Source of the DNA: Undaria pinnatifida
Lineage: Eukaryota > Sar > Phaeophyceae > Laminariales > Alariaceae
Length of the DNA: 64,000 nucleotides
Direction: 5' to 3'
Assembly (NCBI GenBank): GCA_012845835.1
Contig: JABAKD010000005.1
Span: 10,062,823-10,126,822, forward strand
The notes below the pieces were generated by a model. That model made no database searches, was not told the origin of the DNA, and saw nothing but the letters and a program-made list of their open reading frames with translations. Positions within the stretch are counted from its first letter, which is position 1; every line of letters starts with the position of its first letter. The position numbers and the translations under genes are program-made. Positions 10,501-51,012 of the stretch are shown here, piece after piece.

Positions 10501-13500
10501 CCGACTCTTGCCGACCCTTGGCGAAGCCTTACCGAACTTGCTAAACATCCCAGCACGTTTCTGAATGCCACCGAACTTGTCCGAACCATTCCGAACGGTA
10601 CCGATCGTTACTAAACAATGTCCAAAATTACCGAACCTTACCAAATTGCACTGAACCTTGCCGAATATTCCCGAGCCTTGCCGAATACCAGATATTACCA
10701 AACGCAACAAAACCAAACACAACCAAACGTTACCGAATACTACCGAACGGTTTTACGAAGATGGGCCCACCCCTTGGTTTAGCCGAGGCTCGAATGTCAG
10801 GTGATCGCAAACTAATTTGACAGAACCTTACCGAATATTCGTGAACCTAGCGCAACCAAACCGAACACAAAATTGCCGAACGTTACCGAATGTCTACCGC
10901 CAACCAAACCTAACCCAAATTTGCCGAACCTTACCGAATGCTTATACCGAACGCGAAATTCAGGTGGGCCCACCCCCTGGTCCGGCCGGAGCTCGGATGT
11001 CTGATAGTCGCGAACGAGAACTTGTTCACGCAGCAGCAGCAGTACTTCTACAGGGCTGTGATTCTGGTGATACAGCACGACCAAGACGGTACGGTGGGGC
11101 TTATTCTTAACCGGCCGACCACTTTCGCGATGGGGGATCTCTGCACGGGGAGCTTGCAGCGTGTTCCGGGCATGGAGGACAACGTGAGCGTTTGCTTATT
11201 AAGGGGTCCATGTACCTGTGTATCTATGCAAATACTATTGAGATGTACGTGTCTGTCTGTCTATCCATCCATCCATTCACCTACCCACCCACCCACCCAC
11301 CCACCCATTCACCTACCCACCCATCCACCCACCCATCCACCCATTCACCTACCCACCCACCCACCCACCCACTCACCCACTTTCAAGATGAGGGATCTCT
11401 ACAAGGGGAGCTTGCAGCGTATCCCAGGCATGAAAGAAAACTTGAGCGCGTGCTTGGTTTAGTTAATAGTACAATCATAGTCAATCCTCACGCGTGCTGC
11501 GATAATAAGTAAAGCTGTGAGCCGGTACGACTTTAGCCACCAGCTAGTTATTGGTCGGACTAACAGTCATTCGTTTCCCCGGAGGTGCGGACTATCAGAC
11601 GTATTGGGTGGGTTTCCATCTTGTAGGAAGGATTGTTTGATGCGGAGTGCGTTTTTTTCTTTTTTGGGCGGGGGGGCTCCGTCGGCCGGGGGAGGCTGAT
11701 TTGGCTTGCTTCACTCGCCCGACTCAAGTGGGCAAGTCGGCTAACCATCAGCCGGTTTCGCCAACCGACTTGACGACCGATGTCGATTTTTTTGGCTACC
11801 GGTACCTACCGATTAGTTTTTAGTCGCGAAACCCTGCGGACTCAACGGCTGTAATAGTATGGGTACAGTACCTTTTTCTGACTGGCGGGGGTGCTGAACT
11901 ACAGCTGCACCTACCGCGAGCCCTTCGGGGGGCCGTGTATTGCGCCCAAAGAAACGGCGATCGCGATAATTTCTAGCGTCTACCAGTAGCGTGAGCACCC
12001 AGCGGTACGAGTAGGACCATGCTGCGCCAGTGTCCCGTAAGAGTATTTGCGCTGTTGTCAGTCGGACACCATTTGTTTTTCATCGCCAAACCTGCGGTGG
12101 CCGATGCCGTAACCGCCAATTTTTCGTCGTCTTTTTTTTTCCCTCTGAAGCCTGAAAGGAGTTACTGCAGCAACTAACGACTACATCAGCTTGCGCTGCC
12201 GGGGTTGTAACGAAGACCACTGATAGGGACAGCTTACGCTATACCTACAATGGGACCCGAAGGGTCCGCCAGCTAGTGTTGGGTTGCGAAATCAGCTGAG
12301 TTAAATCAACACACGACGCGTATGAAAATACGTGGAAGTGTGGTGAGCTAAAGCTTTATTTTTCCCCATCCGCCGGAGGATGAAAAAAAATGGAAAAAAT
12401 CTTTCCAACACTGTCGGAATGCCGTTTTTTATTTTTCAAGTAAAATTGTCCTGCTGGCCCTGGCAGCGCCCGGGAAGAACCATTGACCTACGATGTCTTC
12501 GAAGAGTAACACATCTGTCAAAACGCGCGCGGCCGGAGTATCACCCAGCCTGCAAAGACGAGTGTCGACCCTTCTAAAATTGATCGAACGAACTCACAGC
12601 TGACGCATAGGTTTTGCAATATTTTTTGTGTAATATGAATAGTATTCTCTTTTTTTCCTTCGGGCGCTTAGGCCATGGGGGTTTGCTCAATGGGTTGCGT
12701 TTTTTTATTTTGCTCTCCTCAAGAAGGAAACGTTTGCGACAGTGCAGAGATCCTCAAGGAAGGAGCGCGGCTACGGTAAGGAGCGAAGGGGGGGGGGGGG
12801 GGGGGGGCGTGTTACTCATTTGTTGCTTGCCTTAGTCGTTTGGCCACTGACCACGCATCCCTTTCGAGACGGAGCACCGTTCCTATTCCTAATAAAGACC
12901 ACCTCCAACATTTGGACGCTCTCCTTATGCTTCTTCTGTATACGACATAGGAACCGTTTGCTTACCCTATCCCCGTCCTGTTTCGCTTTGGTCGAGGGGG
13001 GGGCTCGTTTGGCGGTGGCTCGGGGCCACTCGCGCGATTGACTCTCCTTTTTCTTTACGGTCTGCAGCTTTCGTAGACTGATTCTACGATAGCCCCTTCA
13101 ATAACCAGCGATTTCATTTTTTTAACGAACGTTTCACGGCTGCTCGACACAAGGAAATATACCGTTGAACACAAAGTGCCCATATATTTTTCTGTGTGCA
13201 AAGGTCTATCGATCGATGACGTCGGGGGCGTCGAGGGACACCGCATTTCGGGAGATACAACCGGGAGCTGGTTTTGAAACCGCCGATTTTCGTTGAAGAA
13301 GAGTTGGGGGGGCTACCGTAGTAAGACTCCGTAATGTTTTTTTGCTTTGCCGTATGAAACCGCCAATGGGATGGTCAGCTTATATACGCCACGGCAAACA
13401 AACCGCCTAAAGTATTGTTTCATTGAGGTACAGAGTATCTCGGGAGGGCGGCTCCAACCCAGTAATGAACACGCGGGTGCCCCCGTTCCCGTAGCCATGG

Positions 13501-19500: not shown

Positions 19501-21448
19501 TAAAATTATTCTAACGACGTTAGCTGTGAGTTCGACGAATTTAGGGTCGGTATTATCGCGAGAGGATCCCAGCTATTTGGTATTTTCTCCCCTCGTCGAC
19601 TCGCATTGAATTGGCTGTACCTGGGTCCCAATGCTTATGCTTGTACCACCGGGTACTATAGTAGCGTGTTTGCGAGATATCGACCTTGGTGGGGTAGGAG
19701 TTGGGTGTACAGGAAAACATGTAATAATAGTATTGAAACCGTCGAAACGCCTCAATCCAAGGGCAACCCAACCCACGGAAAAAAAAACAGGTTGGAAATG
19801 CATTTTCCTACAATTGTTTTTTGTTTGCTGACCTAGCTTTCTCGCGGGTTTTGGTTCGCCTTCGGTTACATATGACATTCGTCGGTTTTAACACTGCTGT
19901 TACAGGTATACCGGTATGTTTTCCCAACCCAACCATAATTTGGAAACCGAACACGCCCCAGTAATTGTGGTCTAAATCGGGTATTAAATGAAGGAGAAAT
20001 TGTTATGTTAGGCGTCCATGTTCTGATTGTTATCCTCCCCTTTCCGTTATCGAGTTAGATAATATTGTGCGGCGTGGCGAACCCTAACTCCTCGCAGGGG
20101 AAAAATCGCAACACGTAGTGTGAATATGATAAGGCACCCACTAGGCAGTTACATAGTAATACCCATTGCTGTCTCTGGAGTGGCCACACCGGAAAACAAA
20201 GTATAACTCATTGGCGCTGTCATCCATAAGCAAGAAAGTAGGCACAAGGTGCCGAAGTCGGTCTTACGAGCGGTTCTTGGAAGGATGCGGTTCACCCTTC
20301 ATGCGACTCGCCGAACACCTCACGGCGGTTCGCGCTTGGTGCAAGCAATGTCTGCCTGGTTGGTGAAAACCCGACGTACTCCGTCCCGGCATAGTAGGGA
20401 TGCGAGGGTCTATGGTCATACGACTACGGCCATGCACAAACTGAGTACATCCCCCCCCCCCCCCCGCAATAGATGCTTCATAAGACCTCACTCGTCGTTT
20501 TTTTTTAATCGCTGTATTATCAGAAGCGGGGCAGTAATGATATTAGAATCTCCTAGCCCCTGTTTTACGAAAGAGGCAGTATTACAAGGAGGCTGCCTAC
20601 CCTTTTTACAAAATCAATTACTATCAGCTTCACCGAGAATGACAGAGAAGGGGGGAGAAGCTGGGAAGACAGCTCAGGCGTCCAAGCACACCCCGGAACT
20701 TTCGGCCCCGGGAGCTCCTACTTTGGCCTTCAGCAGATTCCGTGCTTTGTTTCCATGCAACCCAAGTCGCACAAGAGAGGGATGATCATATCCACCGAAG
20801 CCGAATAGATGATCACTCGCTCCTTTTTCGCGGCGGGTGGCCCCAGCAGCTCTGCGGGAGGTGGAACCACTTGGTTTATCCCACACTACTGAAGAGAAGA
20901 ATGGAATCTAATTATACTGGTGTATATACACACCAGGTATATATTATATTATACTCCGGAGTATTATATACGTGGCGGTCCCAAAAGGGCGAACTCGTGT
21001 GTTTCTTTCCGTTAATGCTACTGTGTCTACTGTGCTACTGTTAGTATTGCTACATTGTTTTCCTAACAGTACGCCGACTGCTGCTACGATACTACTACTG
21101 CTACTGCTCCTCCTCGTCCTCGTCCTCGTCCTCCTCATGCTACTCCTGCTGCTGCTGCTACTGCTGCTGCTACTGCTGCTGCTACTGCTGCTGCAACAGC
21201 TACTACGACCTATACTGACACTAATCGTTCTCCTATTGCTGCAGTTTTTCTCGAGATACTCGGGGTGGGGGCCAGGACAACTCGAGGCGGAGGTGCTGGC
21301 GGGGAACTGGGTGCTAGCGGCGTGCGACTTGGATAGCGTGTTGAGGTGCCACAACCACCCAGACCAGCCGGGACATTTTTGGAACGAAATAATGTCGCGA
21401 TTGCGTCGCCATGAGCAACGCCAGGAGGAAGCGGAGGAAGGTTTATAG
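7433..21448 (+). CDS. plastid-targeted UPF0301/DUF179 (AlgH/YqgE-like) protein, six exons
   Basis: The model joins 7433-7594, 9119-9480, 10964-11183, 15551-15646, 18525-18608 and 21245-21448, giving about 375 residues. Every intron is GT...AG and the phases agree across all five junctions (0, 2, 0, 0, 0). The mature part has the plant/algal order: a DFRARL segment, WAHP, then the family core GCLIVAN, VILVIQHDQDGTVGLILNRP, LYMGG, LHG-like LMHG, GLRLGG, GKADPEEFK and YSGWGPGQLEAEV. The N-terminus is a signal peptide plus Ser/Thr-rich transit segment, so the protein should act in the plastid stroma. The family's structure is known in bacteria (YqgE, HI0304), but its biochemical role is not settled; the name AlgH comes from Pseudomonas alginate genetics and should not be over-read. 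The total length of 14 kb is almost all repeat-filled intron. Confidence 0.88.
7903..8115 (+). repeat. GATC-rich dispersed repeat, copy 1
   Basis: This contains GATCTGTGCAGTACAGATCC, a CAACCCAGGAAACATGTGCTAG-like stretch, GATCGTGCGG, CTCTCACCTGGCAACAT and AGACCAGGGATCTGTC. The same order recurs at 17190-17420 and 25690-26050, with a related end at 26860-26960. It lies in intron 1. Confidence 0.65.
8180..8277 (+). repeat. short poly(A)-tailed retroposon-like repeat, copy 1
   Basis: TGTGGTGAGCTTGAGCTTTT, then CCCCATCCGCCGG, ending in a run of A. Related copies lie at 12311-12395, 14514-14603 and, on the minus strand, 56807-56872. The A-rich end at the same point in each suggests retroposition of a short RNA. 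Confidence 0.55.
8366..8720. repeat. degenerate ~9-bp array (CTGAACGTA-type)
   Basis: Dozens of imperfect units such as CTGAACGTA, CTGAACGCG and CTGGACATA fill this part of intron 1. Open frames on both strands here (tripeptide-like repeats) are a by-product of the 9-bp period, not genes. Confidence 0.75.
9119..9480 (+). CDS. exon 2: transit region and DFRARL segment
   Basis: The acceptor AACAGCAG at 9111-9118 keeps phase 0 with exon 1; an alternative AG three bases upstream would add one codon. The exon encodes a Ser/Thr/Arg stretch, an acidic Gly/Glu/Asp linker, then MELRDFRARLMSKG at 9341 onward, a segment that precedes the DUF179 core in plant plastid homologues. It ends AGCAAGGAGAG before donor GTGGGA (phase 2). 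Phase 2 is completed exactly by the first G of exon 3. The 5' boundary is the least certain part of the gene model. Confidence 0.7.
9500..10300. repeat. G/T-rich triplet-like tract in intron 2
   Basis: The + strand is dominated by GGTGGTGTTGGTG-type units for about 800 bp. The complementary strand therefore shows a 246-codon His/Thr/Pro frame, which I regard as an artefact of composition. Confidence 0.8.
10430..10960. repeat. ~10-bp TTACCGAACC array adjoining exon 3
   Basis: Imperfect units of about 10-11 bp (TTACCGAACC, TTGCCGAACT, TTACCGAATA) fill the end of intron 2 up to the exon 3 acceptor. A damaged copy of the start of exon 3 lies within the array at 10759-10815. Confidence 0.8.
10759..10815 (+). 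pseudogene. partial duplicate of the 5' part of exon 3
   Basis: GATGGGCCCACCCC, TGGTTTAGCCGAGG, CTCGAATGTC and GATCGCAAAC match the first ~55 bases of the real exon 3 (10964 onward) at roughly 85 percent by eye. The upstream TTACCGAAT...CCGAACG flank also matches. The copy soon hits a stop and has no usable continuation. Confidence 0.75.
10964..11183 (+). CDS. exon 3: DUF179 core, first half
   Basis: The acceptor AAATTCAG is followed by GTGGGCCCAC. Encoded motifs are WAHPL, RPELGCLIVANENLF, YRAVILVIQHDQDGTVGLIL and NRPTTFAMGDLC, the most conserved block of the family. It ends GGACAAC before GTGAGC (phase 0). Partial damaged copies of this exon lie on both sides, at 10759-10815 and 11378-11460. 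Confidence 0.9.
11250..11380. repeat. CCCA/CCAT minisatellite
   Basis: Repeated ACCCACCC and ATCCACCCATTCACCT units lie between exon 3 and its 3' partial copy. They give a meaningless Pro/Thr/His frame. Confidence 0.9.
11378..11460 (+). pseudogene. partial duplicate of the 3' part of exon 3 with dead donor
   Basis: GAGGGATCTCTACAAGGGG, AGCTTGCAGCGTATCCC and AGGCATGAAAG align with the end of exon 3 (about 11115-11183) and on into its donor region. The donor GTGAGC of the real exon is TTGAGC here, so this copy should not be spliced. CCCA-type minisatellite separates it from the real exon. Confidence 0.8.
11655..11845. repeat. dispersed repeat, also at 62030-62200
   Basis: GGCGGG, GCTGATTTGGCT, TTCACTCGCC, GGCAAGTCGG, CCAACCGACTTG and TTTTTAGTCGCGAAACCCTGC occur in the same order near 62030-62200. 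One end, read on the minus strand, begins CAGGGTTTC, reminiscent of hAT-type termini. No matching opposite end was found. Confidence 0.45.
12311..12395 (+). repeat. short poly(A)-tailed retroposon-like repeat, copy 2
   Basis: ACACGACGCGTATGAAAATA, CGTGGAAGTGTGGTGAGC, then CCCCATCCGCCGGAGGATGA and an A-run. It is the closest relative of the copy at 14514-14603. Confidence 0.65.
12788..13036 (-). mobile_element. LINE A, 5'-truncated 3' end with poly(C) tail
   Basis: On the minus strand this encodes the end of the LINE A protein (KQDGDRVSKRFLC, then RNRNGAPSRKGCVVSGQTTK and ASNK with stop). It continues through GTAACACG into a run of 20 C (20 G on the + strand at 12788-12807). It matches the 3' end of the long copy at 31620-31735. 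It lies in intron 3. Confidence 0.8.
13076..13329 (+). mobile_element. 4-bp-TSD MITE, copy 1
   Basis: The left end is GACTGATTCTACGATAGCCC; the right end, read inverted, is GAGTCTTACTACGGTAGCC. CGTA flanks both sides (13072-13075 and 13330-13333). The interior is non-coding and shared with the other copies: GGCTGCTCGACAC, CTATCGATCGATGACGTCGG, GGAGCTGGTTTTGAAAC. Confidence 0.85.
13640..13735 (+). repeat. dispersed repeat shared with 24975-25055
   Basis: ATGTCGCGCCGTACTAAAA and TTAAGAGCGCCTGCTTCGGG match ATGTCGCGCCGTGCTCAAAA and TAAAGAGCGCCTGTTTCGGC near 24980-25045. Function and ends are unknown. Confidence 0.5.
14023..14203 (+). mobile_element. CAGCAGTAGTGG inverted-repeat element, copy 2
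   Basis: It begins CAGCAGTACTGATCTCTCC and ends GGCACTATAGAGGGATCCCT. The interior has GGCACTACGCCGCAT and CAGGCACTATAGCGGGCAAC. It has the same layout as the better preserved copy at 16564-16803. Confidence 0.6.
14514..14603 (+). repeat. short poly(A)-tailed retroposon-like repeat, copy 3
   Basis: ACACACGACGTGTATGAAAA, GTGTGGTGAGCTTAAGC, CCCCATCCGCCTGAGGAT, then an A/G-rich tail. Confidence 0.65.
14695..15540. repeat. TTATCG-type satellite, about five monomers, ending at the exon 4 acceptor
   Basis: Monomers of about 150-200 bp share GTTATCGTTATCG blocks, CTTATCGTACCGA, TTGTCGTTTCGATATCCAAC, CTACTACCCACCCTACT and TGTTTCTGTTCGATAACGAT. The last monomer's CAACACTACTACCCGACCTA runs directly into the polypyrimidine tract and AG of exon 4. 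The array therefore appears to contain copies of this gene's own intron end. Confidence 0.75.
15551..15646 (+). CDS. exon 4: LYMGG/LMHG segment
   Basis: The exon has 32 codons. The acceptor CCCCTCTCAG at 15541-15550 sits at the edge of a TTATCG-type satellite. It encodes ILYMGGYVAG, the counterpart of the family's GGPV loop, then VVNLMHG and DDVPGMEV-like sequence. The donor is GTATGA at 15647, and both ends are phase 0. Confidence 0.88.
15665..16065. repeat. GATTGGTG-rich simple repeat and GACCGGTCGG cluster
   Basis: GGTGATTGGTGATTGG-type units run from 15665 to 15960. A short GACCGGTCGGTCGGTCGACC cluster, containing palindromic GACCGGTC and GGTCGACC units, follows at 16018-16055. Long Pro/Thr/His frames on the minus strand are composition artefacts. 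Confidence 0.85.
16564..16803. mobile_element. CAGCAGTAGTGG inverted-repeat element, best copy
   Basis: The left end is CAGCAGTAGTGGTCCCTCGA; the right end is its reverse complement with a few changes, ending CCACTACTGCTG. The interior repeats TATAGTGCC units. No coding sequence is present. Target duplication is unclear. It stops eight bases before the hAT-type MITE's left target duplication. Confidence 0.75.
16819..17075. mobile_element. hAT-type MITE with perfect 8-bp target duplication
   Basis: The left end is CAGGGCTCTTCACGGGTC; the right end inverted is CAAGGCTTTTGACGGGTC. ATTTTAAC occurs immediately outside both ends (16811-16818 and 17076-17083). An 8-bp duplication and CAGGG-like termini are hAT hallmarks. 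The interior is tandem GACCCGACCC and TATATATGGAAGC units with no transposase. Confidence 0.85.
17190..17420 (+). repeat. GATC-rich dispersed repeat, copy 2
   Basis: Shares GTGCGGGATCTGCGTAGTAC, CACGCTAGATCGTGCGG and CGCCCGGCAGCATGATCTAG with the copies in intron 1 and at 25.7 kb. Confidence 0.6.
17745..17845. repeat. (TTG)n and (ATG)n microsatellites
   Basis: TTGTTG repeats at about 17746-17766 and ATGATG repeats at about 17820-17842, in intron 4. The surrounding part of intron 4 holds no recognised gene. Confidence 0.85.
18525..18608 (+). CDS. exon 5: GLRLGG / GKADPEEFK segment
   Basis: The exon has 28 codons and follows acceptor TAATATTGCAG. VVKGLRLGGLKEALALVAEG and KADPEEFK match the family helix and the stretch preceding the GYSGW motif. 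The donor is GTGAGC at 18609, and both ends are phase 0. Confidence 0.9.
19131..19332. mobile_element. hAT-type MITE, second and older copy
   Basis: The left end CAGGGCTTTTTACGGGTC and the inverted right end AAGCGCTTTTCACGGGTC match the 16.8-kb copy, as does the interior CCTCCTG...GACCCGACC pattern. No clear 8-bp duplication remains, so this copy is likely older. Confidence 0.7.
19690..19785 (+). repeat. dispersed repeat shared with 38705-38785
   Basis: GGAGTTGGGTGT, AACATGTAATAATAGTATTG, AAACCGTCGAA and CAACCCAACCCAC match GGGTTGGGTGGGAACACATT, AATTATAGTATTGAAACCGG and CACCAACCCAACCCACC at 38.7 kb. The ends are inverted relative to each other (GGGTTGGGT and ACCCAACCC), suggesting a small MITE. 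Confidence 0.5.
20040..20455 (-). repeat. family 2 dispersed repeat, inverted copy in intron 5
   Basis: This is the reverse complement of the copy at 23489-23880. Shared blocks include GTCGGGTTTTCACCAACCAG, GGTGTTCGGCGAGTCGCATG, CTTGCTTATGGATGACAGCG and GTGTGGCCACTCCAGAGACA. It provides an uninterrupted version of the sites where MITEs sit in the 22-23-kb copy. Confidence 0.8.
21080..21215. repeat. (CTG/CTA/CTC)n tract upstream of exon 6
   Basis: Pyrimidine-rich triplet repeats lie 30-165 bp before the exon 6 acceptor and could act as part of its polypyrimidine region. The in-frame poly-leucine reading is not considered coding. Confidence 0.8.
21245..21448 (+). CDS. exon 6: GWGPGQLEAEV segment and C-terminus
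   Basis: The exon has 67 codons and a TAG stop. It follows acceptor ATTGCTGCAG, which lies just after a CTG/CTA-rich polypyrimidine region. RYSGWGPGQLEAEVLAGNW and VLAACDLDSVL are diagnostic of DUF179, followed by a FWNEIMSRL helix. The last ~22 codons are Glu/Arg/Gln-rich and belong to a tandemly repeated DNA unit that continues downstream. An upstream in-frame leucine run (21030-21200) reads through the CTG repeat and is not part of the protein in this model. Confidence 0.9.
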   Translation, partial: FFSRYSGWGPGQLEAEVLAGNWVLAACDLDSVLRCHNHPDQPGHFWNEIMSRLRRHEQRQEEAEEGL

Positions 21449-22393: not shown

Positions 22394-22924
22394 GACTGAT
22401 TCTACGATAGCCCCCCCCCAAAAAACCAGCGATTTTCTTTAACGACTGATTCTTACTACGATAGCCCCCCCCCAAAACCGGCGGTTTTCTTTAACGAACG
22501 TTTCATCATCATCAATCATCATGGCTGCTCGACACGAGGAAGGATGCTATGAAAAGAGTATCTGCATACATGATCTTGTTTGCGGAGGACTATCGAACGA
22601 TGACGTCTGGGTGGTAAGGGACACCGTATTTCAGAAGATACGGCCAGGCGCTGGTTTCAAAACCGGCGATTTCGTTAAAGAAAAGTTGGGGGGGCTACCG
22701 TAGAACCACACTAACGAACGCTTCAGGGCTGCTCGACACAAGGAAGGAGGATACTATTGAAAGAAAAGTATCCATATGTTTTTTTTGTGTGCAAAGACCT
22801 ATCGATCGATGACGTCGGGGTATTGAGGGACACCGTATTTCAGAAGACACGGCCGGGAGGAGTTGGTTTCAAAACCGGCGATTTCGTTAAAGAGAAGTTG
22901 GGAGGGCTTACCGTAGAACGATTC
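22394..22924 (+). mobile_element. 4-bp-TSD MITE, composite (tandem) copy 2
   Basis: It starts GACTGATTCTACGATAGCCC. A second left end begins at 22444, and two consecutive interiors follow. The far right end is CTTACCGTAGAACGATTC. CAAT flanks the whole unit (22390-22393 and 22925-22928), so the tandem arrangement either inserted as one piece or formed after insertion. Confidence 0.8.
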
Positions 22925-22976
22925 CAATTAGTTTATTTATTTTGTGGTGTAGTCACTTCCATATACATCAATGGGG

Positions 22977-23226
22977 GACTGATTCTACGATAGCCCCCCC
23001 CCCTAAACCAACGATTTTGTTCAACGAACGTTTCTTGGCTGCTCGTCACGAGGAATGATGCTATGAAACGAAACGTCTTCGTATATTTTCTTGTTTGCAA
23101 AGGACCATCGAACGATGACGCCGGGGCAGCAAGGGGCACCGCATTTCAGGAGATATGGCCGGCAGCTGGTTTCAAAACCGGCGATTTCGTTAAAGGAAAG
23201 TAGGGGGGGCTACCGTAGAACCACTC
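22977..23226 (+). mobile_element. 4-bp-TSD MITE, copy 3 (complete)
   Basis: Ends GACTGATTCTACGATAGCCC and GGCTACCGTAGAACCACTC, flanked by GGGG on both sides (22973-22976 and 23227-23230). The empty site is visible in family 2 at about 23775 (GCAATGGGCAT). It is 250 bp long and non-coding. Confidence 0.85.
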
Positions 23227-23334
23227 GGGGCAGCATATCATGTAACTTGCTCGTGGCTGCCTCACCATATATCTGGTACACATTACGAGATGTATATCCC
23301 CTTGCACGGAGGTAAGGTTCTCCACTCAATAGGG

Positions 23335-23455
23335 ACACCATGGAACTGCCTCGTGGGTGCCTTGCCATCATTCACACTACGTGATATCACCCCCCTTGCG
23401 CGGAGACAGGGTTCTCCACTCCGCACAATACGATCTACGGTAGCTCGGCGGGTTT
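23335..23455 (+). repeat. family 2 repeat, right part only
   Basis: TGCCTCGTGGGTGCCTTGCC, ATTCACACTACGTGAT and CCACTCCGCACAATACGATC repeat the end of the family 2 unit. Confidence 0.65.
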
Positions 23456-23488
23456 TCAATGACCAAGCAGGCATGAGAGGGGGAGGGG

Positions 23489-23882
23489 GGTGTACTCAGT
23501 TTGTGGATGGCCGTAGTCGTATGAGCATAAACCCTCGTATCCCTACCATCCCGGGACGGAGTACGTCGGGTTTTCACCAACCAGGCAGACATTGCTTGCG
23601 CCAAGCGCGAAGCGCCGTGAGGTGTTCGGCGAGTCGCATGAAGGGTGAACTGCATCCTTCCAAGAACCGCTCAAAAGACGGACTTCGGCACCTTGTGCCT
23701 ACCTTCTTGCTTATGGATGACAGCGCCAATGAGCTACCTTGGTTTCTGGTGTGGCCACTCCAGAGACAGCAATGGGCATATTTTTTACTATACTTCGAAG
23801 TATGTAACTGCCTCGTGGGTGCCTTGCCATCATTCACACTACGTGATGCGATAAGATATGATCTAACTCGATAGTCATCATA
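23489..23882 (+). repeat. family 2 repeat, uninterrupted copy
   Basis: It runs from TGTACTCAGTTTGTGGATGG to GATCTAACTCGATAG. It is in inverted orientation to the copy at 20040-20455, so the pair encloses exon 6 and the MITE cluster. Confidence 0.8.
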
Positions 23883-24160
23883 GACTGATTGTACGATAGC
23901 CCCCCCCCAAAAAAAATCCAGCGATTTTCTTTAACGGACGTTTCATGGCTGCTCGACACAAGGAAGGATGATACTATTGAAAGAAAAAAAAAGTCCATAC
24001 ATTTTCTTGTGAGCAAAGGTCTATCGATGGATCTGGCGTCGGGGAGGGTGTCGAGGGACACCGTCTTTCAGAGGAGATACGACCGGGAGCTGGTTTCGAA
24101 ACCCCGGCGATTTCGTCAAAGAAAGGTTGGGAAGGCTACCTCGTAGACGTAGAACGACTC
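23883..24160 (+). mobile_element. 4-bp-TSD MITE, copy 4
   Basis: It starts GACTGATTGTACGATAGCCC and ends GTAGAACGACTC. The flanks are CATA and CATG, a near-match target duplication. The interior contains the family blocks GGCTGCTCGACACAAGGAAG and TCGAGGGACACCG. Confidence 0.75.
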
Positions 24161-26050: not shown

Positions 26051-26055
26051 AGTAA

Positions 26056-26632
26056 GCCATCCGACGGTAGGGGTGCAGGAGATTATAGGAAATTTCTGAG
26101 CCATCCCACGGTAGAGGTGCAGCAGATTCTAGGAAGTTTCTGAGCCATCCCACGGTAGGGGTGCAACAGATTCAAAGAAATTACTGAGCCATCCCACGGT
26201 GGGGGCGCAACAGATTCTAAGCAATTTCTGAGCCATTCCACGGTAGGGGTGCAGCAGGTTCTAAGAATTTTCTGAGCCATCCCACGGTAGGGGTGCCGCA
26301 TATTCTAAGAATTTTTTAAGTCATCCCACGGTAGGGGTGCAGCAGATTCTAAGAAACTTCTGAGCGATCCCACGGTAGGGGTGCAGCAGGTTCTAAGAAA
26401 TTGCTGAGCCATCCCACGGTAGGGGTGCAGCAGGTTCTAAGTAATTTCTGAGCCATCCCACGGTAGGGGTGCAGCAGGTTCTAAGACATTTCTGAGCCAT
26501 CGCATGGTAGGGGTGCGGCAGATTCTAAGAATTTTCTGAGCCATCCCACGGTAGGGGTGCAACAGATTCTAAGAATTGTTCAAGTCATCCCACGGTAGGG
26601 GCGCATCAGGTTCTAAGAAAATTTCTCTGAGC
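26056..26632. repeat. 44-bp minisatellite, about 13 units
   Basis: Each unit is close to CCATCCCACGGTAGGGGTGC, AGCAGATTCTAAGAAATTTC, TGAG. The unit length is constant and there are no unique spacers, so it is not a CRISPR array. It sits between two stretches of the GATC-rich repeat. Confidence 0.95.
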
Positions 26633-27810: not shown

Positions 27811-27834
27811 AACGGACTGATTCTACGATAGCCC

Positions 27835-30800
27835 TTCTGTCACAGAAAGAAAGTTAAAGAGATGGTAGAGAAGAAGAAGGGATTATGGAAACACGTAGTT
27901 GTTTAAAGAAACGAACAAAGACTGTGATGGCGGGATGAAGCAGATGTGGGTAGGGATAAAAGGGATACTGGGTCAACAAGCAGGCGAGGCAGACACTGCA
28001 ATAGCGAGCAGAACAGTAAAATGGTTGGTAGCTTGGAGGGGAAGAGGGAAACACTTGTAGAACATTACCACAAGCTAGGAACGCCCGCAGCCAACGAAAG
28101 GTTCGACGCAGAATTCGAGGAGGAAATCAGCGCGTGGGCACAGGCAAACATAGGTGCGTCAGAAAAGGAAGACAGTGGTTCAGACGGATTATAGTGAGAG
28201 TTCACAAGATGAGACGTAAAGAAGTATGTACCTAAGCTTAAGGATAGAAAAGCAGCAGGGGCAGATGAAATAGTGAATGAATTTATGAAGTACGGGGGAG
28301 AAGGTATCCTTACTATGATGGTTATGTTGTATAACTAGATACGGAAAAACGAGTACGCGCCTAAGAGGTGGAGAGGAGTAGCAGTAAACTTGTTCAAGAA
28401 AGGAGATAAGGCTGACGCCATTAAACTACCGAGAGATAACGCTATTAAGCACCATAAGCGCCGTAGGCAAAACATTCTGTAAGATCTTGAACGATAGAAT
28501 AGGAACAAAGTTGGAGAAGGACGAAAAAATAAGCGAAGGGCAAGCAGGATTTAGGCCAAATCGTAGTTGCGTGGACCATGTGTACACATTAGGTAGGATA
28601 ATTCAAGGTAGGAAAGACGCTGGGCTAACGACGCACTGTTTCTTCCTAAATGTACAGAAGGCCTATCTATGGCAGTGTTGTTGCTGTTCTCACATTAACT
28701 CGCATAATCAAGTCCGTAGTCACAGGACAGGCTCCAGTCACTCTGGAGCTGAGAAATACCCCAGGGAAAAACACACAAAACAAAAACAAAGGTGGTACAC
28801 GCATATATCACAGCTGACGCAATTCATGCCTCCACCAGAAACATATAAAAGTGAAATCGGGAGTCAGCCTACGATGTGCTTGGTCCACACTGGTACATAC
28901 GTCGCACTACTCGCGACTGGAAAACCCGACTACATCGCTTGCCACCCAGAAAACACTACCACACATGTGTTACACGTGGTACCTATCACTACGCATACAC
29001 ACAACTCAAGTCAATTGGAAGGAATAAAATAAAATAAAATACGGAAAATAAAAGAAAAGAAAAGAAAAAGAAAGCGAATAAAGGAAAGGAAAGGAAAAAA
29101 GAAAAGAAAAGAAAAGACAAGAAGACGAAGCAAGGAAAGGAAAGGGAAAGAAAAACACCATATAAGCAGACCCTATGAACTGACTAAAGACGGCATTGGG
29201 CTCATAGAGGGTATCCAGTGCATCAATGGCACTGGGAGTAGAACGCAACAAGGCGAAGAAGTCAGGGCGGCGTTACGCTATCTTGTGACGGCCATTGGAA
29301 GGCCCACAAATTTCAAGACGATAATGGTCAGACCCAGACTTCAGTCTCTTGGGCAGGACCCCTCCCCTTCCGCCCCCCATTCTTCCCCCCTTCCCCTCTC
29401 CACCCTCCCCCCCTCTCCCCTCCCCCCCTCCCCCCTCCCCGCCTCCCCCCCCCCCCCCCCTCCTCCTCTCCCCCCTCCCTCCCTCCCCCCCCCCCCCGGC
29501 AGCTTAAAGGTGCTGATTGCCCAAGTACACAAACTCGATCGTTTGTTTGCATACCTGGCCGGGTGCCTTGATGGCGAACGACACCTTTCCGCCATCCTTA
29601 GTCTGCAGGCACATCATCTCCGTTTTGGCCTCGGACACCGTAAACTCTAAAGCCGAGCACGCAGTCACGATCGCCGTCATCATCCTCTCCAACCTTTCTA
29701 ATGGTCGCGATACGATGCCCGCATCGTCAGCGAACAGCATACCCCACAACCTCTGCACCTCCTTCTCCTTCCCCCCACGCCCGTCGACTTTGCCTGTGCG
29801 TGGGGTGCCCTTCTTCTCCCCGTTCTCATCCTTTCGTTGGAGCTGCACCATGTTGTCTGTGATGGCTGCACCAGAGAAGAAGCGTTTCTCGGCCACACGC
29901 AGTACCGCCGTGAAAAACATGTTGAAAAGCAGTGGCGCGAGCACGCATCCTTGCCTGAGACCTTGCCCCACGTCGAACTTGTCCGAGCACTCTCCACCAT
30001 CCAACCTCACCCATGCTTGCATGCCGTCGTGGAATTGGTGGATGCGAGCGTTCTCGGTGGCACGCCAAAACGAGCAAGGACGTCCTAGTATGGAGGAATG
30101 GGTTTTGGAAAATGATGTGGGCAAATGGGATCAGAGGAAAGATGTGGAGAATTATGAAAAATACGACGAAATGTGCGAGAAGTGCTGTGATGCTGGACGG
30201 GCAATATTGAAGTATGTTGATATTTTAAAAGGAGTTGCACAGGGATGTACACTATCGCCCAATCTATTCAAGGTATATATGATATGATAGTAGCGGTCAA
30301 AGCAGCAAGGCAAGGCGTCACGTTGGGGGAAGATACGGTGTCGGGGTTGATGTTTGCGGATGGTTTCGCGAAAATATCAGAAACACCCGAAGGATTGCAG
30401 AAACAGATATTAGTAGAGAAAGCACTAGCGTACACTAGGAAATGGAGTGTGACAGCGAACGTGAAAAGATGCGCAGTAGTTGTATGTAACGAAGGTAAGG
30501 TGAATCCGGTAAATTTTCAAATGGAAGTGGGGAGAAGGTGAACTACCGATCGTAGACCAGTATACGTGCCTTGGCGTAGAAATATCAAAGGATTGCTCTT
30601 GGGATGTACACATCATAGCGAAAGTAATAGGAAAGGCTATATGACAAGTGGGCAAGATGGACGCGATTCTAACAGACTCGCACGTTCACACTAGGATTCA
30701 TATATGCATTCTGATGAATGTGATTCACCAAAGTTAGAGTATGCAGGAGAAATAAGGGAAGGGAACGCGAAATTCGTAAAACAACCGGAAACAGTGCAGG

Positions 30801-31735
30801 TGGCAGCAGCTAAAAACATGCTAGGATGCTCAAGTACGACGAGTAATACACAATTAAGAGCTGAACTAGGCATGCACCCACTTAAAACAAATACCAGGTA
30901 GATACGTGTGAAAGTTGAAATGGCAATATAAAGTTAGGAATATGCCAGAGAAGAGGTTGCCAGCCATAGCTGATAGGGCTGTATGGGAGAAAATAACGAA
31001 AGGATGAACTGGAAAAATATGGGATAACGCAGTCGAGAAAATATGGAAGGAGTTAGGGAGAGACTGAGAAGAGGTACTGTCTATAGAGAAGTTTGGCGGG
31101 TACAAGACAGAAGTACAAGAAATAAAAGAAGAAAAGGGAAAGGCAAGCGCTATTAAATAAGGTGAAATAGGAGAGGCACTTAAGAGATATACGGGGGGTT
31201 GAGTGAAGATATTGGAATGAAAACGTATCTGCACGGCCCAATGGACTACACGAAAAAGTTGAAACTGCGATTTCGTGTAGGGGACCTGGACCTACCTGAA
31301 AGAAGAATGAGATATACCAGCGGTCGGGAGGAGGAGGACGTGGCTATACGCATGTGCCCGTGTTGTACAACAATAGAGAGTAGGACTCACATAGTAGGAC
31401 AATGTGAAATATGCAAGGAGGAATGGGGTGCGTGAGAGGAGATGAGGAAATTAGACGTATATGACATGGAAGAGTTTGGAAGATTAGAGAGTAGCAATAA
31501 AGCGATCGCTATCCTAGGAGATAATTGGTGGCCGCAGACGGCGAAACAGGACGGGGATAGGACAATCAAACACTTTCCACATGTAATAAACGGAAGAAGC
31601 GTGATGAGCGGCCCAAATGTTGGAGGTGTCTATTGGGAGTAGGAACGGTGCTCCGTCTCGAACGGGATGCGTGGTCAATGGTCAAATGACTAAGGCAAGC
31701 AATAAATGAGTAACACGCCCCCCCCCCCCCCCCCC
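27835..31735 (+). mobile_element. LINE A: non-LTR retrotransposon, nested and decayed
   Basis: Translated pieces in order: a pre-RT segment (KVKEMVEKKKGLWKHVV; LVEHYHKLGTPAANERFD), RT start (KLKDRKAAGADEIVNEFMKY, NLFKKGDKAD), GQAGFRPNRSCVDHVYTLG, GIRGKMWRIMKN, GVAQGCTLSPNLFKVY, SGLMFADGF (usual FADD, second Asp changed), then a C-terminal CCHC-type stretch (CPCCTTIESRTHIVGQC) and GDNWWPQTAKQDGDR. Stops interrupt nearly every piece (for example near 28337, 28480, 30210 and 31064), so it is dead. It is 5'-truncated inside the coding region. Its 3' end reads TGAGTAACACG followed by 18 C. A 1.4-kb LINE B insertion splits the RT at 28676-30085. Clade is uncertain (jockey/CR1/L1-like). Confidence 0.85.
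28677..30085 (-). mobile_element. LINE B: second non-LTR retrotransposon inserted in LINE A
   Basis: On the minus strand it encodes half an RT (HQFHDGMQAWVRLDGGECSD, GQGLRQGCVLAPLLFNMFF, MLFADDAGIVSRPLERLERM, VSEAKTEMMCL, IEFVYLG). A G/GGA-rich block (29380-29505 on the + strand) follows, then a pyrimidine-rich 3' region, and it ends ATGTGAGAACAGCAACAACA. The (AAC)-type tail is characteristic and recurs at 45.2, 50.5 and 55.8 kb. TATGGCAG before and TATGGAGG after may be a diverged target duplication. The copy is 5'-truncated and probably internally deleted. It belongs to a different family from LINE A, as its RT motifs differ. Confidence 0.75.
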
Positions 31736-31961
31736 TAACCAGCAATCTTCTTTAACGAGCGCTCCATGGCTGCTCGATACGAGGAACGATGCTATGAAAC
31801 AATTATTTGGAAATGTTTTCTTGTATGCAAAGGGCTATCGAACGATGACGTCGGGGTGGCAAGTGGCACCCTATTCCAGCAGATACGGCCGCGAGCTGGT
31901 TTAAAGAACCTGCGATTTCGTTGAAAAAAAGTTGGTGGGACCACCGTAGAACCACTCAACG

Positions 31962-40299: not shown

Positions 40300-43200
40300 A
40301 AAATGTTGTACGGGTGTGAGAGGGCGGCGGAGGGACAGAACACATGTGTTGGAGTCACGAAATGCTCTATAAGTCAAGAAAGATGGCAGGGAGGTGTGAA
40401 ATCTGATGCTTGAAGGGCTGTCGGACGAGTACAAGACTTTGCGTGAGACTCTTGTGGTGTTCTGTCCGAATGACCCATCGTTCATCGAGACTAAAGTGCG
40501 TGAGCGGTACCTAGACTTGCAGGCACAGGGCGGTTCGAAGAAGCACAGTAGTGTTGCTCTGGTGTCTAGGACTGAGAGGAAAAGCAGCAAGAAGCACAAC
40601 AGCAAGCCGAAGTCTAATTCCGAGTCTGATTCATCCAAGAAAAATACTTTTCAGGGGAAGTGGATCAAGTGTGGGGAAAAGGGTCACTTGAGGAAGGACT
40701 GCCTGGCTCGCATCATCGCTCATCCTACACAGACTGGGAAATCCGAGGCCGACAGGATGAGAGCGGCAAGAAGTCTGACGTTTTTTATTTGGAGTGTCTG
40801 CTAGCACGCCGGAATGATGTGATTGTGCAGGCATGTGAGCAGTTGGGCAGTATGATGTACGATGTTTCTGGTTTGAAGTATCTGCTAACATCACGAGATG
40901 ATCTGATTTTGAGCGATGTCAATAAGGATATGATTATGAACGCTGTTAACAAGTCTAAGTATTTCGAGGATTGGTATGCGGACACGAGCACTGCTTTTCA
41001 CATGTCAGATTCTCTCGCTTGCATGAAGGATTTGAAGCCTTGCCAGAAGAACGTTAACGGGATTGGTGGCAGGTTGAATTCTCTAGAACACTGGGTTTGG
41101 TGTTTGTGACTGCTGACAGCGAGTCTTCAGTAGAGCTGAAGAACGTGTTGGCTCCCCCAACTTGGGATACAACCTCTTTTCCACGAGCGCAGAGTTTGAT
41201 GGCGAGTCATGGAATGGTCTTGGTGGTCCTGATGGTATTATGACTGCTTTTCAAGGACAAGTCACTTTTCAGAACTTCGATGGCATGCTGATTGCGACTG
41301 CGTATCGTCCAGGAGAAGACTCTATTGGTACGGTGTTGGCTGCCCTTACTCCTTTAAACCCCAGGCATGAAACGACGATGGATGTGAACGAGCTCCACAA
41401 CATTTATGCTCATTCGCACAAGGGATTGCTTTGTACTACTGCAAAGCCACTAGGTACCGAGTTGGTTGGTGACATGCATGCTTGTACGGGGTGTTCAATG
41501 TCGAAGGCTATTAGGAAAGAAATTTCTCATGAAACTAAACGTAGATCAGATAAAAAGTTGGGCAGAGTTTTTGTTGACCTGGGAGGGAGGAAGCACGTTG
41601 CGTCCGTAGGGGGCAAACATTTCCCCATGATTGTGAAGGATGCTTTCACAAGGCGTGCATGGATGTATTTCCTGAGAAATAAATCAGACGCTGGCAGTGC
41701 TTTCCGAAGTTTTCTTCGAGTGTGCGTGCTGATGGGATCCCATCATTGGTTGAGATTGTTAGATCTGACAATGGAGGGGAGTTTTTCGGGGGGGAATTCG
41801 CATCTGTGTGCTTTGAGCTTTTGATCAAGCAAGAGTTCACTCCGGCTTATAGTCCGCAAAATAATGGTGTTGCAGAGCGTGGGTTGGGATTGCTTGAGGA
41901 GGCCGCGATGGCGGCTCGTATTCAGGCGAAAGTTCTTTTTAGGCATGTGCAGTTACCTAAGGCTGACAAACTTTGGGCTGAAGCTATGCATTGGGCTTGC
42001 GAAGCAATGAACCGCACCGCATGTTCTGCTAACCCTGACTCTAAGTCACCGTATGAAATGTGGTATAGAGAACCTCGTCCTGCTAGACCGTACCCGTTTT
42101 TGAAACCGGCGTACTGCAGGTGGCAGCGACCGTCGAAGCTGTTGCCGAAGGGTGAAAGTTGCTTTTATGCTGGTCCTTTGAGAGACCACCCCCGTGAACA
42201 TCATAGAGTACTTACGAGGGCTGGGACTATTCAGGAAACAAGAGATGTGACGTGGCAGGTGTTGCCGTCACAGCTCCCTCCACTGCAACCTTCATTGCCG
42301 ATAGAGGTCGCAGAGGAGGGAGGGGAGGAAAGTGACGATGATGTAGAAGCCGAGGTATGGCCGATTGTTGAGAGAGGAGTTGCCCACACACTATTAAGAC
42401 GTGATGTAAGGGCTTCTAGTGGAGAAATCGATGAGCTTGTCAGTGTTGATGCAGGCAGTGTAGGCCAATCCCCCTCTGTTCCATCTTCCCCCTCTGAACC
42501 GTCTTCACCCGTGAACAATTCCTCTGATAGAGCAGCTCCCTCTGTGTCTTCTTCAGCGCCTGAGACTGATGGAGAGGGTCAGGGAGGGCAGGAGGCAGGG
42601 GAGGTAGAGATGGAGAATCCGGGAGGGGATGATGAGGTAGAGTCGATTGGGCCGGGAGAGCATGATGATGTAGAGTCGATTGGGTCAGGAGGGCCGGTAT
42701 ACCTCCAGCCGCTCGTCATCCGCGGCATGTCGCTGAGCTTGCTGACTTTAATACTCCTGCGCGTGAGAATGATGAAATAAGAGACGGTAGAACTCGCGCG
42801 CGAACCCGTGCAGTTAACCAGCAGAGCGTACCCGGCCTTGTGGCCACCCTATGACCCATCTCTGCATCAGAGACAGTATATGCACTTGTAGCGGAGCAGA
42901 AAGCAGGTGAAGAAATCGAATATCCGAAATAACTGGTTCAGGATGTTGATTCAGAGCCTGGTAGCTATCAAGAAGCACAGCAATCAAAGCACGCCAAGAT
43001 TTGGGAGGTAACCAGGTCTGCCGAAACTGAAGGCTTGATAAGCGCAGGAACGTTCACGTTAGCAGCAAAGGTCCCAGTAGGCTGTAATGTGATTGATGCT
43101 AAATGGGTTTTCAAATGAAAAGCAGACGAAACAGGGAAGATAGTAAAGGCCAAGGCTAGGCTTGTAGCGAAGGGCTTCAAGCAGAAATATGGTGTGGATT

Positions 43201-44720
43201 ATCTTGAGATTTTCTTGCTTACCGCAAATGCTGCATCTCAGCAATTGTTAGTAGCGTTGGCGTGCAAGTACAACTTGGAAATACTCCACTGGGATATTGA
43301 GCAAGCGTTTGTTCAGGCGGCATCGGATCACGAGGTGTTCATGAATTTGCCTCCTGGCTGCGGTTCGGTGTCAGGAAAGGTTGCCCGTTTGAACAAGAGT
43401 TTGTACGGATTGAAGCAGACATCTAAACCATTCTACAAGAGGCTATTTAAATAGTGTCGGACCTGAAGAGGATTGGTTTCGAGCAGTCTATGTCTGACCC
43501 CTGTGTCCTGCGTTTCATTATGGGAGACGAGGTGGTGGGGATGATAGCGATTCACGTGGATGATATTCTGTATGGCGGAACTAAGAGTCTGGCTAAGGTG
43601 GTTGTGGAAGCACTAGATGACTCTCTTCCTACGAAGAATTTGGGTGAGGTCAAGTTCTTTCTTGGTTGCGAATTTATTCGCCACTGCAAGGCTGGCACGA
43701 TTGAGATTTCTCAAGAGAGCTACATTAGGAGTGTTCTCGAGAGATTCAATATTTGTTGCACCAGCTCGGTCCCTGATTCCCTTGCCAACGACAACAGGTC
43801 CTTGAAGGAGGATGAGGGGGCAGGAGATGTGCCGTTCCGAGAGGTGGTGGGGAACCTGATGTGGATCGCCAGCCTGACGAGGCCCGACGTCTCAATTGCT
43901 GTTCGGGCTGTGGCGAGGCACTCTCACGATCCAAAGAGAAGCCACTGGAAGGCAGCCCAGAAGATCCTGAATTATCTTCTGGAAACGGCGCATCTAACTC
44001 TGAAGTTCAAGCAGGACAGTTCGGTAGACGTAGGCACGTTGGCACACGTAGATGCCGACTTTGCAAGCAAGGCCACTGACCGTAGAACAGTTTCGGGAGC
44101 GATGGTGTTTGTGGCTGCGATGCTTGTGGTTTGGATTTCTAGGACGCAGAAATGCGTTTCACAGTCGACTTCTGAAGCAGAGCATCTTGCGATGGGCGAT
44201 GGTGTGAAGGAGGCTCTGTTTGTGAACGGAATGCTTCAGTTCCTGAGGCCTAGTAGGAAGCCCGGTAAGATCGACGTCCTTGAGGACAACGAAGGAGCGA
44301 TTGGGCTTGCAGAGAATCCGCTTAGCTCGAGTAGGAGTAATCACACCAACGTGAGGCACCACGTTCTTAGGAATTTGACCGAGGAGGGTGTGATCGAGGT
44401 CACGCATGTTCCCAGCGAAAAAGAGCATGCGGACATCCTTACGAAGGCTCTGCCGAGAGATCTTTTTGAAGTTCACCGCGACTTTGCACTTGGCTCGAGG
44501 ATGAGAAGTAGAAGTCTGAGTCAATTTTTTTGTTTGTTTGTTCCCTTTGATATATATATATTTGGTCTGGTAGATACAACAGCCCCTAGGGAGGGTGTTC
44601 GTGATAGCGGCCGTGTGTATCGACTGAGTTGCTGTCGAACATCTGATTGGATGATTCCAATATCGGAACTGTTGATCTGGGGTTGCCGAGCTAGCACATA
44701 GGAATAATCATGGTGGTGCT
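40300..44720 (+). mobile_element. Ty1/copia-type LTR retrotransposon, broken
   Basis: The parts lie in copia order: a gag remnant with a CCHC zinc knuckle (about 40.4-40.8 kb), the protease/GAG-pre-integrase region (about 40.9-41.5 kb), integrase core (about 41.5-42.1 kb), an acidic linker, reverse transcriptase (about 43.0-43.9 kb) and RNase H (about 43.9-44.5 kb). Integrase before RT identifies Ty1/copia. A purine tract followed by TGTTCG near 44.6 kb may mark the start of the 3' LTR, but no paired 5' LTR was found by eye. The element is broken, with roughly five to eight interruptions over gag-pol. It is of moderate age because the motifs remain easy to read. Confidence 0.9.
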
Positions 44721-44849: not shown

Positions 44850-47760
44850 GCCGTGATCGGTACGTTGCATTGGTCCGATTGTGTGCATCTTTCCGAAGCG
44901 GCGTGGGAGCTCGAAGCCTTTGTGCTCACCCCACTCGTTCACTCCACTTCTCGACCTGTTTCTCCAGACCAAGGTCTCATTAATACAATATCTCTTTCTC
45001 CAGAAGTCACGGATTTACCAACAGATTCCGTGGAGGAGGAAACGGACGTTCGTGGTAGGAATCAAGGGAGGCCTTGCCACGAAGGGGAAGTAAGCCGTTT
45101 GGAAGCGGAGGTTGGAGAAGGTAAAGCAACCAGTTCAGGAATTGGGGGAATTTCTGGGACGAAGAGGCGCATTCCTGAAGGGAGGTAACGGAGAACGAGC
45201 GATTTATTCGTTCAACGAACCCACCATCTCTTTGATTGTTGTTGTTGTTGTTCTCACATTAACTCGCATAATCAAGTCCGTGGTCACAGGACAGGCTCCA
45301 GTCATTCTGGAGCTGAGGAATACCCTAGGGAAAAAAACAAACAACCCAAGGTGGTACACGCATATATCTTGTTGAACCGTGCTCACATCATGGGGGAAAA
45401 GCCAACCGAAGGGTATATCGCACACCCAGCGGATGCGACACGCCTTGAAGAAGCTGAAGAGTTGCACTTCAACGAGTATGCCAAGATAACCACAGGGCAG
45501 GAACACTACGTGATCCCGCAGACGGCCAGCAAAAGCGCAGTGGCGAACGTCATCGCATATTTCACGTATCTTCCAATGCTACGAGCAGTATTAGTTGAAC
45601 TAGTTGTTCAAGGTTTACTGGGAAAAATGGTAACAGAGGTCGTGGAACTGGAAGGATTGGCCTGCATGGTGTTTGAGGATTATCTCGCAGCAGCAAAAGC
45701 CTTTGAGGTGACAAGAGCGGTCACGAGATCGCAGGCAAAGGTCACTTCCCAGGAACCGGAGGTTGTCTGGGAGGCAGAACCGCCGTTGCCTGAGGAGGAG
45801 GAGATGGAGAATGCACCGGCGCAGACAATCACTACTACTGAGCTACCAGTGGACGCTGATCGCCCACGCAAACGCAGGGGACAGCTAGAGAGCCCATCCC
45901 GAAACGGAAACGGCAACGTGATCCGTTGGAGGAACTACCGAAGGACACCAGCAGCCGTTCGACCGGAGCCATCCATGCTGGAAAAGACATGAAGACAGAC
46001 AAAAAAGTCGTGAGAGTCGGAATGCTGAAATCGGTCGGACCTCGGTGGGAACCCGTGTTGTTGTCGGAGGCAAGGTGCTGGTGAAGGAGGCGGAGTCTGT
46101 GATGGCAAGGGAGGGGATACATAATAAACTAGCCCACGAGGACTGGACCGGACTTTGGGAGGTGACTGAAGTTGTCTTACCAGGACTCAGCTACACCGTC
46201 ATGATGAATGGGCGAGGGATTCGCCGATAACGGGCGTCAGCAGCGAGGGATTCGCCGACAACGGGCGTCAGCAGCGAATATCAAGATGTTCCACTTACGT
46301 CCGGACGACCTCCGTCTCGACTTCGAAAACGAATTTGCTCACCCGGCATGGGGAGTTGACGTAGGACTTGCGGAGCCATCAATTGTAGCGTCGCCTATGT
46401 ATACCCTAATAGACAGAAAGGCTGTGATGGGTCAGGGCAACGCTTGGAAGTGGCGATAAGAGGAACGATTTGCGGATGGCACGTAGTCGCAATGGCTGTC
46501 CGAAAAGGAGGCGTGAGACAGTTTCACCCCTTTACAGCTGGACGTTTTCCATGCACTGTGGGAAACGTATCATGGAGCGGAATACCAGGCAAGGCCGACT
46601 TTGACGCTAACGCGGAAGGAAAGAGATGGGATCGACCGCGAACACGCGTCGAAACAACACCCCGTGGGGACCGTGGTCTGGAGGGAATGCGGGGACGCTG
46701 AAGGAAACAAGAAACGTCACCTTTCAAAGGTCTTCGACCACAAGTCACCATACTGGCGGGTTTGGTACGCAGACAGAGATTGGAAGGAGCGCAACGAACG
46801 TGAGATCCTGAAAGCTAGGAGGACCGGAAATTTGCAATCCGGTTTCCCGTAAACACGAGGAACGTGAAGTGGAGTTCGATGAAGAATGGGAGAAGGTGTC
46901 AGCCGAAGATCGACTAGCGAGCAAGATCAAGGCCTCGGCCTACCCAGGTTAACGGGAAAAGCCGGGGAGTTGTGGATAAGAGGCTTTCGGCTGGTGCCCT
47001 TGATGAGAAATTTGAGCAAGTCCAGCAGTACCGATCTGGGCCCTAATGCGGAAAAGCGCGAGGCCCAGGGTCCCTACCCCCGGAGAGACGCATTTCCCTG
47101 AATATGGTAGACGCCAATCATTCGAGCCTTAGGGTAATCGAAACACGACTAAGTGTGGAAAAAGCCCCTCACTTCTACTCCAGTGTATCCGCAGCCCGGT
47201 TAGCACGGGATTCTTAGGAAGCCGTGCCGGGGGGGCGTTGCGGCGGATTGACATGATGTCACGTAATATACGTAGCGGAATGCTGCCTAGGTATGTACAA
47301 CTCCAGTCAGTCTGGAAAGCGCATCGCTCACGGTCTTAGTCCAAAAATACACACGAAACCACACGAGGGAAAAAGGAACCTGAACTTGATCTGACACGAG
47401 CGTGAGTAACTGCGAACCGAGCCTGAGTACAGCGATCGTTACCGTAAGGTATTGTTGGAGGTTTCATGCGGAGATCTGTTATATCGCACTAGCGCTTGCA
47501 AGAGGACTGCGTGAGGAAGACTGGTGTTTGCAGGCAGCTGTTGCAACAAGCAGACGGGAGGAATCACCCTGAAGGCATACACGGAGGAAACGAACTAAAA
47601 GCGGTGAGAGTCTAGGGACAAGGAGTTGGAGACCTGGGTGCGTGTGTCTAAAATACTCCGGGGTAGCTCTTATCCTTCGTTACAATATTTATCCCTGAAC
47701 ATAAACATGCAATAATCAACTTGATTGACAACGACGGGTTGTAGCGGTATCATAACACAC
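44850..47760 (+). mobile_element. Ty3/gypsy-type LTR retrotransposon remnant, broken
   Basis: The recognisable part is the end of pol: the integrase C-terminal GPY/F-like region and following tail (about 46.0-46.95 kb), of a type common in stramenopile Ty3 elements. It is preceded by a less clear acidic segment (about 45.4-46.0 kb). A G-run followed by a TTGCGGCGG start near 47.235 kb and an AACA end near 47.76 kb outline a possible 3' LTR. The element is incomplete and broken at many places (at least six), and a LINE B 3' fragment has inserted at 45236-45369. It lies directly downstream of the copia element and appears older. Confidence 0.75.
45236..45369 (-). mobile_element. LINE B, short 3' end
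   Basis: The minus strand ends CGGACTTGATTATGCGAGTT, AATGTGAGAACAACAACAAC. It is 5'-truncated to about 134 bp and inserted in the gypsy remnant. Confidence 0.8.
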
Positions 47761-50531: not shown

Positions 50532-50619
<88 letters not shown>

Positions 50620-51012
50620 ATCACATCAACTCGCATAATCAAGTCCGTGGTCACAGGACAGGCTCCAGTCACTCTGGAGCTGGGGAATGCCCCAGGGAGA
50701 AAACACAAACAACCCAAGGTGGTATACGCATAGTCTATATCACAGCTGACGCAATTCATGCCTCCACCAGAAACATATAAAAGTGAAATCGGGAGGCAGT
50801 CTACGATGTGCCGGTGCATACGTCTCATTACTCGCGCCTGTAAAAAACCGACTATACCGCTTGCCACCCAAGAAAGACTACCACGTATATATTACACGTA
50901 GTATCTATCGCTACGCATACGCACGACAGGCGCAAGTCAACTGGAAGAAAGAAACAAAGAAAAGAAAGGAAGATGAAGGAAAGGAAAGAAAAGAGAAGAA
51001 AGCGAAAAAAAT
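50532..51012 (-). mobile_element. LINE B, longer 3' end with (AAC)n tail of about 29 triplets
   Basis: The (TTG)n at 50533-50619 is the reverse of an AAC tail. Upstream on the minus strand come the family blocks CGGACTTGATTATGCGAGTT, GGCATGAATTGCGTCAGCTG and a CTTTC-rich region also seen in the 28.7-29.15-kb copy. The long perfect tail suggests a recent insertion or tail expansion. Confidence 0.8.

Follow-up and report, generated by a model that had tools for sequence, protein, structure and literature searches.

Positions 27811-31961 of a 64,000-nucleotide stretch of the Undaria pinnatifida genome (hereafter the window) hold a MITE that is split by a LINE (LINE A), which is itself split by a second LINE (LINE B). 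In what order did these elements arrive, and what brought LINE A to its place in the MITE? Nested transposons are ordinary, and so, in itself, is this nest; the part worth following is an apparent preference of LINE A for runs of C. The C-run at the LINE A insertion site was absent from an earlier sequence-only reading of the locus, which had described the three elements and their order. We compared each of them with their relatives in the genome (511 Mb in 68 contigs); L labels denote loci fetched from it.

Architecture of the nest and order of insertion

The outermost element belongs to a family of non-coding MITEs of about 250 bp with inverted repeats, whose left end reads GACTGATTCTACG... 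and which has at least 2,468 first-look candidate copies in the genome (40 were scored and listed). Its left part (27815-27834, plus strand) consists of the terminal inverted repeat GACTGATTCTACGATAG and the CCC of a C-run, and matches all 14 compared copies at 18-20 of 20 nt. The right part (31736-31957, plus strand) runs to the end GAACCACTC, as in the family copies, and is preceded by a run of 18 Cs (31718-31735, plus strand) that comprises the LINE A tail and the MITE C-run; the 14 copies have C-runs of 4-15 at this point. Rejoined from 27815-27834 and 31718-31957, the MITE (260 nt) aligns end to end with every one of these copies (247-277 nt), with 190-214 matches over 237-252 aligned positions, and its excess length over the 247-248-nt copies consists of Cs. 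The comparison covered 14 of 16 complete copies, leaving out L004 733-984 and a composite at 22394-22711 of the window. The left terminal inverted repeat GACTGATTCTACGA is present in 13 of the 14, while the complemented right end reads GWGTGGTTCTACGG in seven and is a variant of this in the rest.

The AACG target duplications that the sequence-only reading placed around the rejoined halves are found at 27811-27814 and 31958-31961, in keeping with the identical 4-bp flanks of 13 of the 16 complete copies (each of which matched on both strands). The family thus resembles MITEs with 4-bp target duplications in being short and non-coding, with inverted repeats and duplications of this length. It differs from them in a C-run that directly follows the left inverted repeat on its inner side; several copies have a G-run inside the right repeat as well. 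Elsewhere in the window, several MITE copies cluster at 22394-24147, one of them a 318-bp composite with a doubled left end.

LINE A enters at the MITE C-run. Its 5' part (27843-28672, plus strand) extends through the first reverse transcriptase (RT) motifs to QKAY; its 3' part (30084-31717, plus strand), recognised by similarity to genome copies, holds the rest of the RT and the C-terminal region, with a TGA stop codon at 31707-31709 and the 3' end GTAACACG. The RT motifs were read by eye, and the Pfam RVT_1 match, in one nest piece only (the 5' part), lies below the curated cut-off (E 0.0017). LINE A classes as a non-LTR retrotransposon bearing an RT. Its copies share a constant 3' end and a variable 5' truncation, with clear target duplications in a minority only. 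A genome-wide search for exact 19-mer 3' ends gave 1,624 hits, against 0 for the reversed control. For the 3' part, 43 matches were listed (40 scored of 3,975 candidates); 12 of the other listed matches begin no more than 19 nt from the start of the query and are 82-86% identical. The nest copy is 5'-truncated: L055, L058 and L060 continue upstream of 27843 and share 82-86% identity with one another over 403-452 nt there, and the other six of the nine relatives that we fetched are truncated further in. A further relative, L061, has what we take to be apurinic-type endonuclease motifs, seen by eye over three frames; a Pfam scan of its pieces at E 1 gave no match. Next to LINE A copies in the window, 20397-20465 and the tail just after the copy at 21967-21888 hold a divergent sequence related to the 3' end of LINE A, ..CACAAACTGAGTACA followed by a C-rich run.

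The RT of LINE A breaks off after QKAY and resumes at VWRNG, as had been proposed from the letters alone. The nine fetched relatives, of 12 listed that reach this point, are all uninterrupted; the sequence there is exactly GGCCTATGACACAGTATGG in three, and the other six carry at least one base change at the same length. As the insert is missing from all nine, we reject the idea that LINE B belongs naturally to LINE A. LINE B itself occupies 28673-30083 on the minus strand, a correction of a few nucleotides to the approximate junctions given previously (28668/30088). It is 5'-truncated, and shares its 3' end and CAA-type tail with other copies: the end, near GTTAATGTGAGAAC, followed by such a tail, recurs at 50607-51010, 45240-45368 and 55837-55766 and is also present in L020, L023 and L026. 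In the nest the tail is a degenerate (CAA)n (28673-28688, minus strand). An RT fragment at 29507-30083 (minus strand) was the only one of eight nest pieces above the curated cut-off in a Pfam scan (RVT_1, E 8.8e-12). We also rejected the idea that LINE B is no more than this fragment; from its 3' end through a C-rich tract to the RT it is colinear with L023, which retains more of the RT C-terminal region, apart from about 700 bp lost from the nested copy after VYLG, at a G-rich tract. The flanks CCTATCTATGG (28662-28672, the last 11 nt of the LINE A 5' part) and CCTAGTATGG (30084-30093, the start of the 3' part) are best read as an imperfect target duplication of about 11 bp, and the LINE A target seems to have already lost 6 nt, or two codons, when LINE B arrived. 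With its RT, (CAA)n tail and this duplication, LINE B is a non-LTR retrotransposon.

Could the three pieces instead be one composite element, or an assembly artefact, with no successive insertions? The sole feature in favour is an 8-nt junction, TTCTGTCA (27835-27842, plus strand), that fits into neither the MITE copies nor the three LINE A relatives that reach further upstream. However, the MITE, LINE A without the insert (in 9/9 examined) and LINE B without LINE A each occur separately elsewhere, and we consider this explanation scarcely credible. The three-level nest is real, and the coordinates first given for it were nearly exact. Because of the nesting, the order of insertion is MITE, then LINE A, then LINE B. 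Neither of the two conditions set to refute the sequence-only reading was borne out: the insert occurs in none of the nine LINE A relatives examined, and all 14 compared MITE copies fit the rejoined MITE.

The sequence-only reading went further, taking the nest to fix the order of activity of the three families, and this part does not hold. The MITE has a divergence from the family majority (K) of 0.132, the two parts of LINE A have 0.087 and 0.075, and LINE B has 0.094; the copies behind these values were in part selected for their likeness to the nest. The underlying differences number 26/215 for the MITE, 90/1,101 for the LINE A 3' part, 57/800 for its 5' part and 33/374 for LINE B. These values agree with the MITE as the probable oldest element; those of LINE A and LINE B overlap, and hence the nest does not fix when the families were active. 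In broader searches, Rfam gave no match across the window at the gathering threshold, and solved-structure searches gave weak matches only.

C-runs at the ends of LINE A copies

The MITE C-run is one of many that adjoin LINE A. Of 31 LINE A 3' flanks, the nest among them, 26 have a run of at least six Cs (C6) no more than about 40 nt away, as do 21 of 37 5' flanks on the same strand. By comparison, C6 occurs in 2.8% of random 43-nt windows from 20 systematic samples (L011-L030, 20 x 10 kb = 200 kb), and G6 is present in none of the same flanks (0/37 on the 5' side, 0/31 on the 3' side). A second set of copies was taken not by likeness to the nest but as every fifth of 100 listed of the 1,624 exact 3' ends, on contigs C1 and C2: 19 of 20 3' flanks contained C6, as did 3 of the 10 5' flanks whose 5' end lay within the fetched stretch (binomial 0.002).

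These counts suggest a preference for C-runs rather than a strict choice. C6 is missing from 16 of the 37 5' flanks, including that of the nest, which has CCC alone on the left. Some of the 5' ends are weak (L012 was mis-set by local alignment, and the flanks of L067, L072 and L075 are shorter than 25 nt), and others appear free of Cs (L032, L047, L048, L073 and L081), with L048 having no C-run on either side. A 5' C6 is present in 17/28 of the copies selected for resembling the nest and in 7/19 (4/9 and 3/10) of the others, a lower share to which decay and short flanks may have contributed in part.

It is possible that LINE A carries a poly(C) tail of its own and inserts regardless of sequence, so that its position at the MITE C-run is luck. 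The 12 of 19 unpicked copies without a 5' C6 fit this, as do the run lengths (n=30), which average 10.5 on the 3' side and 7.1 on the 5' side; as the 3' run is the longer, part of it may be tail and not target. Likewise, the 3' end carries 13 consecutive Cs in L031 and an extended C-rich tract in L042, yet the duplicated target contains only about four Cs. A tail alone, however, gives no C-run at the 5' end, where C6 was seen in 21/37 and 3/10 flanks against the 2.8% background, with no G-runs in 37. In addition, two copies (the nest and L035) occupy one and the same C-run within a single MITE family. We therefore regard insertion regardless of sequence as rather unlikely. On the 3' side, tail and target are not told apart.

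Target duplications provide a further view of these flanks. In 6 of 30 copies (L025, L031, L040, L041, L042 and L049), the match between a copy's own 5' and 3' flanks beats that to the 3' flanks of the other 29. For L031 and L040 the match lies in repetitive C-rich flanks, while in the other four the shared flank is a C-rich target plus about 7-12 further nt. A target duplication was also seen by eye in L082. With the C-runs collapsed, the similarity of own flanks exceeded that of permuted pairs at only p = 0.03.

Alternatively, LINE A copies might simply survive better in C-rich surroundings, through selection or recombination, without any insertion preference. C- or G-runs are indeed common in this genome (192 of at least 7 nt in the 200-kb sample), and the flanks of L034 and L051 are broadly C-rich. 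Such survival would be a poor match to runs that abut the LINE A end and are strand-specific (G-runs in 0/37), and that are duplicated together with flanking bases in L025, L041, L042 and L049, making this a very improbable account.

We consider it likely that LINE A carries a C-tail and favours C-runs as targets, and that the nest formed in that way. A C-tail on the RNA probably acts jointly with the preference, given the 5' flanks without C6, the lower share in unpicked copies, the p-value of 0.03 and the longer 3' run.

A proposed route into the MITE and C-runs in other repeats

The MITE, with its 4-bp duplication and an inverted repeat running into Cs, inserted first. Under this preference for C-runs, LINE A would then have entered the C-run of the MITE by target-primed reverse transcription. 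The G-strand would be nicked at or within the C-run, and we infer that the choice of the run is made by the LINE A endonuclease itself. The G-rich 3' end of the target could then pair with the presumed C-rich 3' tail of the LINE A RNA. Early termination of cDNA synthesis would leave the 5' truncation, and repair would duplicate the C-run together with as many as about 12 nt of adjoining sequence. The (CAA)n-tailed LINE B entered the LINE A RT gene afterwards, at a site with no C-run, with its duplication of about 11 bp.

Long C/G runs are commoner than A/T runs in this genome; runs of at least 10 in the 200-kb sample number 81 for C/G and 44 for A/T, at 49% G+C. That LINE A makes most of the genome's C-runs is a possibility that we rejected, as its 3' signature lies upstream of only 3 of 191 sampled runs of seven Cs. 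We also rejected the idea that this MITE attracts LINE A in particular. Two of 51 LINE A 3' flanks (40 loci by BLAST, the rest by eye) lie in the MITE, one of them being the nest itself. A MITE match lies no more than 25 nt from 5 of the 192 C/G runs of at least 7 in the 200-kb sample, and from 9 of 49 in the MITE-rich window. The rate of LINE A in the MITE is thus close to the MITE's share of sampled C-runs (p ~0.39, computed with 52 flanks), and no special affinity is needed.

In the second of these two flanks, L035, the LINE A 3' end adjoins the C-run of a copy from this MITE family (80% over 179 nt); inspection by eye of about 1 kb upstream did not show the left half of that MITE. In L033 and L044, one LINE A copy lies next to or within the C-run of a second. 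By eye, the LINE A copies of L044, L050 and L056 appear to lie in C-runs that belong to a single further repeat family (..TTATGCGACCTAA..).

A broader reading, which we put forward tentatively and at slightly less than even chances, is that by targeting C-runs LINE A multiplies its own landing places, because each insertion would duplicate the run, and that C-runs within transposons seed nests across the kelp genome. The platforms would be this MITE, the second repeat family in L044, L050 and L056, and LINE A itself. The preference for C-runs would also supply a mechanistic reason for the nesting of one transposon family in another.

Comparison with known elements and other features of the window

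The closest known mechanism is L1-type target-primed reverse transcription at A-runs, which gives a homopolymer tail, a duplication starting with the same homopolymer, and 5' truncation. LINE A would follow this L1-like scheme with A replaced by C; unlike in L1, an A-tail was not seen at the LINE A 3' ends examined. As a C/G pair between tail and primer is stronger than A/T, LINE A would give a simple test of tail and target pairing in the choice of insertion site.

Known targets of non-LTR elements include rRNA, tRNA and snRNA genes, spliced-leader exons, transposons, microsatellites and telomere repeats (PMC4640811). The same paper describes microsatellite-specific elements, namely Togen in (TG)n and some HERO families (PMC4640811). 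LINE A resembles these in being an RT-bearing non-LTR element with a constant 3' end against a multi-copy simple repeat, but its target would be a mononucleotide C-run and its preference is not absolute. That paper also attributes restriction-like endonucleases to HERO, and to Togen by its kinship with NeSL (PMC4640811), whereas the LINE A relative has apurinic-type motifs, recognised by eye only. A literature search of limited depth and journal coverage found no description of a C-run-targeting LINE. A LINE with such a target would add to the kinds of target known for non-LTR elements (PMC4640811). It would also bear on the U. pinnatifida genome, 36.1% of which is assigned to repeats of unknown class (PMC7058681).

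The window contains several other features. Positions 41117-44701 hold Ty1/copia-like LTR remains, with an RVT_2 match and a weak match to an integrase core that falls below the curated cut-off. A frame at 10914-11462 has a DUF179/AlgH-like domain (E 1.7e-09) and is probably a fragment of a host gene. Finally, a minisatellite of 44-bp units like TCCCACGGTAGGGGTGCAACAGATTCTAAGAATT occupies 26054-26631.
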